Of a stretch of 64,000 nucleotides of DNA, positions 14,297 to 15,970 are shown piece after piece. Source of the stretch: Bacillota bacterium (GTDB lineage Bacteria > Bacillota > Sulfobacillia > Symbiobacteriales > ZC4RG38). Positions within the stretch are counted from its first letter, which is position 1, and the number at the start of each line of letters is the position of its first letter. Location: NCBI GenBank assembly GCA_021890795.1, contig JAKKUO010000007.1, positions 1-64,000 of the forward strand. Direction: 5' to 3'. The notes under the pieces were generated by a model. That model was not told the origin of the DNA, did not search any database, and worked only from the letters and a program-made list of their open reading frames with translations. The position numbers were made by a program, and so were the translations under genes.

Positions 14297-14325
14297 TTGC
14301 AGCCTCCTGCCGCTGATGTTATAAT
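14297..14325 (+). promoter_or_regulatory. sigma-A promoter of the aspS T-box transcript
   Basis: TTGCAG, 17-bp spacer, TATAAT: a perfect -10 box. It lies about 45 bp upstream of the first recognisable T-box helix and drives aspS on the plus strand. Confidence 0.85.
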
Positions 14326-14370
14326 TTGCTGCAACATCGCCGAGAATATCGGCCATACCAACGGCCCAAA

Positions 14371-14628
14371 GCGATGACCGGGCGAGTAGCCGGGTCCCCC
14401 TGCCCCCAGAGAGCCGGACCGCGGCTGGAAGTCCGGCGGCAGGCCCCGGTGAAGAACCCCCGGGAGCGCGGCGCCGAACCGGGTGCGGCCCGTCATAGGC
14501 GTCGCCGGTACCCGCCGTTACCGGGTCGAGCGGCCGCCGGCCGGGGCAGGACCCCGACCGGTCCGGCAAGAAGGGTGGCACCGCGAGCTTCCAGGCTCGT
14601 CCCTTACGGGACGAGCCTTTGTGTTTTG
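14371..14628 (+). promoter_or_regulatory. T-box riboswitch controlling aspS
   Basis: The T-box core AGGGTGGCACCGCG lies at 14572-14585, followed by a 10-bp terminator stem GGCTCGTCCC/GGGACGAGCC (14594-14617) and TTTGTGTTTTG. Stem I shows the AGTA loop-E strand (14385-14388), the AGAGAGCC and GGCTGGAAG distal-loop elements, and helices CCGGG/CCCGG on both sides of the specifier loop. The 3' side of that loop reads GTGAAGAACC, giving overlapping GAA and AAC triplets (14454-14457) instead of the Asp codon GAC. Uncharged tRNA should favour the antiterminator and aspS expression. Confidence 0.92.
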
Positions 14629-14662: not shown

Positions 14663-15970
14663 ATGGCTGTGCAGACTTCCACCCGGGTCCTCACCCGGGA
14701 TCTGCCCCAGCACCTGGGGGCGGTGGTCACCCTCATGGGATGGGTCCACCGCTGCCGCCACCTGGGAAAGCTCGCCTTCCTCATCCTCCGGGACCGGTCC
14801 GGGCTGGCCCAGGCGGTACTGGAAGGGGAACTGGCCGCCCGGCCCCTGCCGGAGGAGAGCGTCGTCGCCGTCACCGGCCCGGTGGCGCTGGAGCCCCGGG
14901 CCCCCGGCGGCGTCGAGATCCGGGTCACCCAGCTTCGGGTGCTGGCCGAGCCCACCCGCCCCCTGCCCTTCGAACTCCACCGGAAGGAGGTCCGGGCCGG
15001 GCTGGAGGTGGTGCTGGAGCACCGGGCCTTCGGCCTCCGGCACCCCAAGCTCGGGGCGGTGCTCCGGGTCCAGGCGGAGCTGGTCCACGCCTTCCGGGAG
15101 TACCTCCGGGACCAGGGGTTCCTGGAGGTCCGCACCCCGAAGATCGTCGCCACCGGCACCGAGGGCGGCGCAAGCCTCTTCCCGGTCCAGTACTTCGACC
15201 GTCCGGCGTACCTGGCCCAGTCTCCCCAGCTCTACAAGCAGATGCTGGTGGGGGCCGGCTACGAGCGGGTCTTTGAGGTGGGGCCCGCTTATCGGGCCGA
15301 GGACAGCCACACCACCCGGCACCTGGCGGAGTTCACCAGCCTGGACGTGGAGATGGCCTTCGTCGAGTCCGAAGAGGAGCTGATGGACCTGGAGACCGCG
15401 CTCTTGCGCCACATGTTCCGGGCGGTGGCGGAGCGGGCCGGGGAGTGCCTCGCCCTCTGGAGGGCCGAGCCTCCGGAGGTCCCCGACCGCATCGAGCGGA
15501 TTCCGGTCCGGGAGGCCCGGGAGATCCTCCTCCGGCGGTACCGGAAACTCACGCCGGAAGGGGACCTGGACACCGAGGGGGAGCGGCTCATCTGCCGGTA
15601 CGTCGCCGAGGCGGGGAAGGGCAGCTTCGTCTTCATCACCCAGTACCCCGAATCCAGCCGGCCCTTCTACGCCTGCCCGGACCCGGACCGGCCGGGGCTC
15701 ACCCGGACCTTTGATCTCCTGATGAACGGCACCGAGATCACCTCCGGCGGCCTCCGGATCCACGACCCGGCGCTGCTGGTGGCCGCCATGCGGAAGCGGG
15801 GCCTGCAGCCGGAGCACTTCGCCCCCTACCTGGAGGTCTTCGAGCTGGGGATGCCGCCCCACGGGGGCTTCGCCATCGGCGCGGAGCGGCTGACGGCCCT
15901 CATCCTGGGACTTGCGAACGCCAAGGAGGCCGCGGCCTTCCCCCGGGACCGGTCCCGCCTCACGCCGTGA
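14663..15970 (+). CDS. aspS: aspartyl-tRNA synthetase, archaeal/eukaryal type (likely non-discriminating)
   Basis: 435 aa: N-terminal OB-fold anticodon-binding domain, then a class II catalytic core with motif 2 FEVGPAYRAEDSHTTRHLAEF and motif 3 GGFAIGAERLTALI. The length and absence of the bacterial GAD insertion place it with the archaeal-type AspRS found in Clostridia, which often charges both tRNA-Asp and tRNA-Asn for later amidation by GatCAB. The ATG at 14663 lies 9 nt after AGGAGG. Divergent from speE and controlled by the upstream T-box. Whether it is non-discriminating is inference. Confidence 0.93.
   Translation: MAVQTSTRVLTRDLPQHLGAVVTLMGWVHRCRHLGKLAFLILRDRSGLAQAVLEGELAARPLPEESVVAVTGPVALEPRAPGGVEIRVTQLRVLAEPTRPLPFELHRKEVRAGLEVVLEHRAFGLRHPKLGAVLRVQAELVHAFREYLRDQGFLEVRTPKIVATGTEGGASLFPVQYFDRPAYLAQSPQLYKQMLVGAGYERVFEVGPAYRAEDSHTTRHLAEFTSLDVEMAFVESEEELMDLETALLRHMFRAVAERAGECLALWRAEPPEVPDRIERIPVREAREILLRRYRKLTPEGDLDTEGERLICRYVAEAGKGSFVFITQYPESSRPFYACPDPDRPGLTRTFDLLMNGTEITSGGLRIHDPALLVAAMRKRGLQPEHFAPYLEVFELGMPPHGGFAIGAERLTALILGLANAKEAAAFPRDRSRLTP

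Follow-up and report, generated by a model that had tools for sequence, protein, structure and literature searches.

The closest described counterpart of the leader analyzed here is the T-box of the transamidation operon of Clostridium acetobutylicum, in which, according to the accounts in PMC4206432 and PMC4052509 (of Saad 2012, 2013), an AAC (Asn) and a GAA (Glu) codon overlap in the specifier loop. C. acetobutylicum is also described (PMC4206432) as having AsnRS and, under T-box control, additional AspRSs and an additional GatCAB, and is thus as redundant as the genome studied here. Another T-box reported to respond to tRNA-Asn is that of B. cereus lysK, for which tRNA-Lys is the cognate and tRNA-Asn a cross-inducer in a mixed codon box, with no overlapping second codon (PMC2916919).

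The locus of interest lies within a 64,000-nucleotide stretch of DNA (the window) and consists of a T-box leader followed by aspS2, which encodes an archaeal-type aspartyl-tRNA synthetase (AspRS2). As in the C. acetobutylicum system, the T-box is tied to an extra AspRS, AsnRS is also found in the genome, and AAC overlaps GAA. On this comparison by description, the window leader differs in that it controls aspS2 alone, without GatCAB, and in that its UGGC bulge mismatches A73, so that it is probably a single-codon T-box. Like that of B. cereus lysK, it sits on an auxiliary synthetase (PMC2916919). The features are as follows.

14320 to 14325, + strand: TATAAT, suggested as the likely -10 of the leader promoter, with a weak -35 (TTGCAG) at 14298-14303; read from the sequence
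14365 to 14607, + strand: T-box leader RNA; RF00230 full model 1-219, cmscan 70.2 bits, E 2.3e-15, own-genome search E 3.7e-15
14371 to 14466, + strand: Stem I, including AGTA (14385-14388), the AGAGA motif, and the specifier loop; Rfam alignment and minimum-energy fold
14454 to 14456, + strand: GAA (Glu) triplet in the -1 frame, overlapping AAC, probably unused; fails the discriminator test, tRNA-Glu having A73
14455 to 14457, + strand: specifier AAC (Asn), with C14458 between AAC and the lower helix; register calibrated on nine further genes with loops of equal length, kept in L115 and L116
14571 to 14608, + strand: antiterminator with T-box bulge UGGC (14576-14579), which pairs with G73-CCA; Rfam alignment, fold, and tRNA-Asn G73
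14593 to 14618, + strand: intrinsic terminator hairpin AGGCTCGTCCC-TTAC-GGGACGAGCCT, 11 pairs, then T-rich TTGTGTTTTG; terminator scan, fold z-score -4.4
14663 to 15970, + strand: aspS2, archaeal-type non-discriminating aspartate--tRNA(Asn) ligase, 435 aa; TIGR00458, NF003483, PDB 1n9w

The region 14365-14607 was confirmed as a genuine T-box leader. The core, terminator, and Stem I landmarks named in the original prediction are borne out by the RF00230 match, the fold, and the terminator scan. The Rfam gathering score for this family is 93, and the scan of the window at that threshold returned no T-box, while the E-value search does recover the leader; 23 of the 24 other T-box matches in this GC-rich genome likewise score below 93. 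In the minimum-energy fold, the specifier loop is closed by a lower helix (CCGGG, 14378-14382, with CCCGG, 14459-14463) and its 3′ side reads GAAGAACC. The core, AAGGGTGGCACCGCGAG, begins at 14571, and the antiterminator and terminator have sequence in common. Stem I, antiterminator, and terminator are thus all present, AAC fits tRNA-Asn(GUU), and UGGC fits G73. The Asp codon was expected to be missing from the loop, and no GAC was found there by reading the sequence; folding and covariance-model comparison placed AAC, not GAC, a single nucleotide above this helix. Both the T-box and the AAC specifier are far beyond chance; the extra GAA is not.

A strict promoter scan reported no promoter, including at the TATAAT at 14320. 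This TATAAT is flanked by an inverted repeat, GTTGCAGC (14297-14304) and GCTGCAAC (14328-14335), that is kept in L115 and could be a possible operator. It is followed by CCGAGAATATCGG at 14340.

The specifier register was calibrated on nine other T-box genes of the genome that have the same 8-nucleotide loop and were named by reading their protein sequences. In all nine, the triplet located one nucleotide above the lower helix corresponds to the amino acid of the downstream gene (CTC leuS, TAC tyrS, TTC pheS, TTC DAHP synthase, GTC valS, ACC thrS, ATG metG, ATC ileS, and CTC ilvC); this is the '+0' frame of TBDB (PMC7778990). AAC of the window leader stands in the same frame, in agreement with its proposed normal position, and among the other T-boxes found in the genome none has AAC in the calibrated frame, the proS leader (L024) being one whose specifier could not be placed. 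The one-base overlap of GAA with AAC is also as proposed, 14454-14457 being GAAC. The -1 triplets of the calibrating loops are unrelated to the gene, for example AAC before thrS and GAT before ileS, and this frame is used by none of the nine. Since every loop has some -1 triplet and the base preceding the specifier is G in five of the nine distinct genes, a GAA overlapping AAC is unsurprising by itself.

In the T-box sequence UGGN, N is the pairing partner of tRNA base 73 (PMC4052509, PMC7778990), and this rule was applied to 19 other T-boxes of the genome; His was left out, since its tRNA may have base 73 paired (PMC7778990). The bulge base pairs with base 73 in all 19, by Watson-Crick pairing in 18 and by a G.U pair at trpE (permutation p ~4e-5), and bulge C occurs in none of the 13 leaders for A73 tRNAs. 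The genome's own tRNA-Asn and tRNA-Asp genes both have G73, and the only tRNA-Glu recovered has A73. When the three frames of the loop are set against UGGC, AAC alone passes, as GAA (Glu) places C opposite A73 and ACC (Thr) places C opposite U73. For Glu, the genome has the gltX T-box as its sensor, with a GAG specifier and a UGGU bulge. tRNA-Glu likewise has A73 in the relatives from the same genus and the sister genus, whose aspS2 leaders retain UGGC. Of the features of a two-codon T-box, then, the window leader has the overlapping AAC and GAA but lacks a bulge that can pair with both acceptor ends. The earlier proposal of tRNA-Asn as the sensed tRNA is upheld by the register and by UGGC/G73; its suggestion of tRNA-Glu is disfavored by the mismatch and the separate gltX T-box. 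The GAA overlap is probably an accident of sequence or a by-product.

The product of aspS2 was assigned by curated models to the non-discriminating archaeal-type AspRS family, as the original prediction had it. It scores 433 bits with TIGR00458 (cut-off 368.4) and 547 with NF003483 (cut-off 353), and is under the cut-offs for bacterial AspRS (TIGR00459, 220.6 < 373.85) and AsnRS (TIGR00457, 242 < 342.6). Its best solved relative is PDB 1n9w, a non-discriminating archaeal-type AspRS. AspRS2 has His in the anticodon domain at the position occupied by Trp in the archaeal enzymes 1b8a and 3nel. His at this position may be associated with acceptance of tRNA-Asn, but the sister-genus protein (L116) has Gln there. 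The long flanking frames, speE-like upstream and protease-like downstream from 15989, run on the opposite strand, so aspS2 alone appears to be controlled by the leader, as had been claimed.

Gene content was established by family searches, which covered the genes that the original prediction had asked about. A bacterial AspRS (TIGR00459, 784 bits) shares its contig with a hisS gene that is led by a GAC/UGGC T-box. AsnRS is present as well (TIGR00457, 495 versus 342.6), with no T-box motifs found upstream of its gene. The gatA and gatB genes and an asnB-like gene were found, glnS was not found in the genome, and there is one gltX. Asn-tRNA can therefore be made by two routes, AsnRS occurring alongside AspRS2 and the GatCAB genes. 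The tRNA-Asn of the genome starts with U1 and has A72, a pair common to the tRNA-Asn of surveyed bacteria with an extra AspRS and GatCAB (PMC4206432). These results bear in both directions on the proposed balancing of Asn and Gln made by transamidation, which GatCAB and the lack of GlnRS favor and which AsnRS and a second, bacterial AspRS weaken. AsnRS together with a discriminating AspRS had been named in advance as adverse; by that criterion the AsnRS and bacterial AspRS that were found would count against the proposal, but Asn sensing is not overturned by them.

Other observations were made in the same genome. A PF00152 search detected only AspRS, AspRS2, and AsnRS, and no class II LysRS; charging with lysine may fall to a class I LysRS. 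The metG T-box region is identical on two contigs (L014 and L015; contigs C25 and C51), which would reflect either an assembly overlap or a duplication. A T-box-like leader without the standard core (L022; AGAGTGGAACCGCG) and with the loop GAAATGC precedes a further gene and is possibly Met-specific.

To place the leader among its relatives, archaeal-type aspS2 genes were gathered both within the window's class and across public genomes, and their leaders were read by eye. The same-genus leader (L115) has the loop GAAGAACC and the sister-genus leader (L116) has GAAGAACA; AAC and UGGC are kept in both, and the sister-genus AspRS is 73% identical to AspRS2. Among the tree members the specifier is GAC in 30 leaders and AAC in 15 (L034-L099, L115-L116, L161-L187). 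The GAC leaders of the same class (L161-L163, L165, L166, L168, L169, and others) share with the window leader an orthologous gene, the leader architecture, and mostly UGGC, and differ in specifying Asp rather than Asn. The Lachnospiraceae-type leaders (L037, L042, L048, L049, L051-L053, L056, L057, L065, and L068) resemble the window leader in having a G-preceded AAC, but their loop is GGGAACA and their bulge UGGU, compared with GAAGAACC and UGGC. Their UGGU can accept both G73, by wobble, and A73, as a working two-codon switch would require. The base before the specifier is G in every one of the 15 AAC leaders and in 2 of the 18 GAC leaders listed.

On the maximum-likelihood protein tree, the GAC/AAC label needs three changes, all of which are forced by well-supported branches. 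AAC appears in the family to which the window belongs, which sits among relatives of its order and class that have GAC leaders; in genome G020 (L164); and in the Lachnospiraceae-type clade. Two of at least three AAC origins lie within the window's Bacillota class. In L164, two bases separate AAC from the helix, as in some GAC leaders of the class. As read from these leaders, sensing appears to have switched repeatedly, at least three times, between the two likely tRNA substrates of AspRS2. We infer a short mutational path. Several GAC leaders read GAAGACA, and one inserted A would yield GAAGAACA, the exact sister-genus sequence, creating AAC and GAA in one step; two substitutions are the other route. 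The nearest GAC leaders, L161 and L162, read GAAAGACC and GAATGACA. Since tRNA-Asp and tRNA-Asn are both substrates of a non-discriminating AspRS and both have G73, sensing either tRNA would be workable, and this may be the reason that the specifier changed more than once. No paper describing repeated specifier change between the two substrates of one enzyme was found in the literature covered, which lay outside the main subscription-journal comparative papers on T-boxes. A link of AAC to coexistence with a bacterial AspRS or to a missing AsnRS was also tried and failed, as both enzymes occur in almost every genome, whichever specifier it has.

The leaders gathered also included some unusual arrangements. 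In L035 (2450-2790), a second core (GGGTGGCACCGCG at 2776), without an obvious Stem I, comes after a complete GAC T-box and before an archaeal-type aspS. In L115 (1120-1200), the initial part of the T-box (AGAGCGATGACCGAACCC) recurs as additional tandem copies upstream of the intact leader. Archaeal-type aspS genes from actinobacteria (L047, L079, L080, L085, L088, and L090) have T-boxes, apparently translational ones, in which Stem I is very short and a small loop carries GAC. The L034 leader is the same as L173 of the class search.

In terms of alternatives, the window leader might act as a two-codon T-box of the C. acetobutylicum kind, in which a one-base shift of the specifier lets tRNA-Glu as well as tRNA-Asn induce aspS2, balancing Asn and Gln from transamidation. 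The one-base overlap, the precedent described in PMC4052509, the G that precedes AAC throughout the AAC leaders, and the derivation of Gln-tRNA from Glu-tRNA where GlnRS is lacking all speak for this. However, C14579 in the bulge mismatches A73, bulge C is used by none of the genome's 13 T-boxes examined for A73 tRNAs, gltX is served by its own GAG/UGGU leader, the -1 frame is used by none of the calibrating genes, and GatCAB is outside the aspS2 transcription unit. We consider such a switch unlikely, the glutamate reading being difficult to reconcile with a UGGC that needs G73. A variant, that the overlap was selected (given the G before AAC and three AAC origins) and that the leaders sense both tRNAs even with UGGC against A73, is somewhat less likely again; for the window leader, the bulge mismatch weighs more than the G-before-AAC pattern.

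The leader could instead sense tRNA-Asp, the usual substrate of AspRS, through an unrecognized register or a tolerated mismatch of AAC with anticodon GUC. This fits the G73 of tRNA-Asp and the GAC of orthologous leaders, but a first-position A-C mismatch would be needed in a loop without GAC, AAC is kept across two genera, and a clean GAC is found in the genome's own hisS-aspS leader; the probability of this reading is very low. We give equally little credence to a decaying T-box on a redundant gene, whose specifier drifted as specific regulation was lost. The score below the gathering threshold and the redundancy of aspS2 next to bacterial AspRS and AsnRS would agree with decay, but the core, AGTA, AGAGA, antiterminator, and terminator are all intact, and the sister genus has kept AAC and UGGC although its AspRS is only 73% identical.

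The window leader is most probably a transcription-attenuating T-box that senses uncharged tRNA-Asn only and drives the auxiliary AspRS2 to GatCAB route. When charging of tRNA-Asn is low, the anticodon GUU of the uncharged tRNA would pair with AAC at 14455-14457 and its G73-C-C-A end with UGGC at 14576-14579. The antiterminator would then be stabilized over the terminator and aspS2 transcribed. AspRS2 would aspartylate tRNA-Asn, and GatCAB would amidate the Asp-tRNA-Asn to Asn-tRNA-Asn, which brings the response back to the tRNA being sensed. Leader anatomy, register, gene class, gene content, and discriminator match were established, and tRNA binding, charging of tRNA-Asn by AspRS2, and coupling to GatCAB are the predicted steps. 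The full match and fold, the nine-gene register, the 19/19 discriminator rule, and the AAC/UGGC kept in two genera support sensing of tRNA-Asn, as do the non-discriminating AspRS family with gatA and gatB and the U1/A72 of tRNA-Asn. The GAC carried by the majority of related aspS2 leaders argues against it, and the invariant G before AAC, which could hint at a selected overlap, argues against single-codon sensing. The need for Asp-tRNA-Asn is not proven, because AsnRS and bacterial AspRS also occur in the genome.

The finding is mostly ordinary in that an auxiliary AspRS controlled through tRNA-Asn is already known from C. acetobutylicum; what differs is the lineage, the monocistronic arrangement, and the probable single codon. 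It also indicates that a claimed two-codon T-box can be judged by sequence alone, as setting the bulge against the discriminator bases of the host separates a usable from an accidental codon. The part worth keeping is that the specifier has changed repeatedly between the two substrates of a single enzyme: where a T-box precedes the gene of an enzyme that has two likely G73 substrates, tRNA-Asp and tRNA-Asn, very few mutations can switch the tRNA that the T-box senses.
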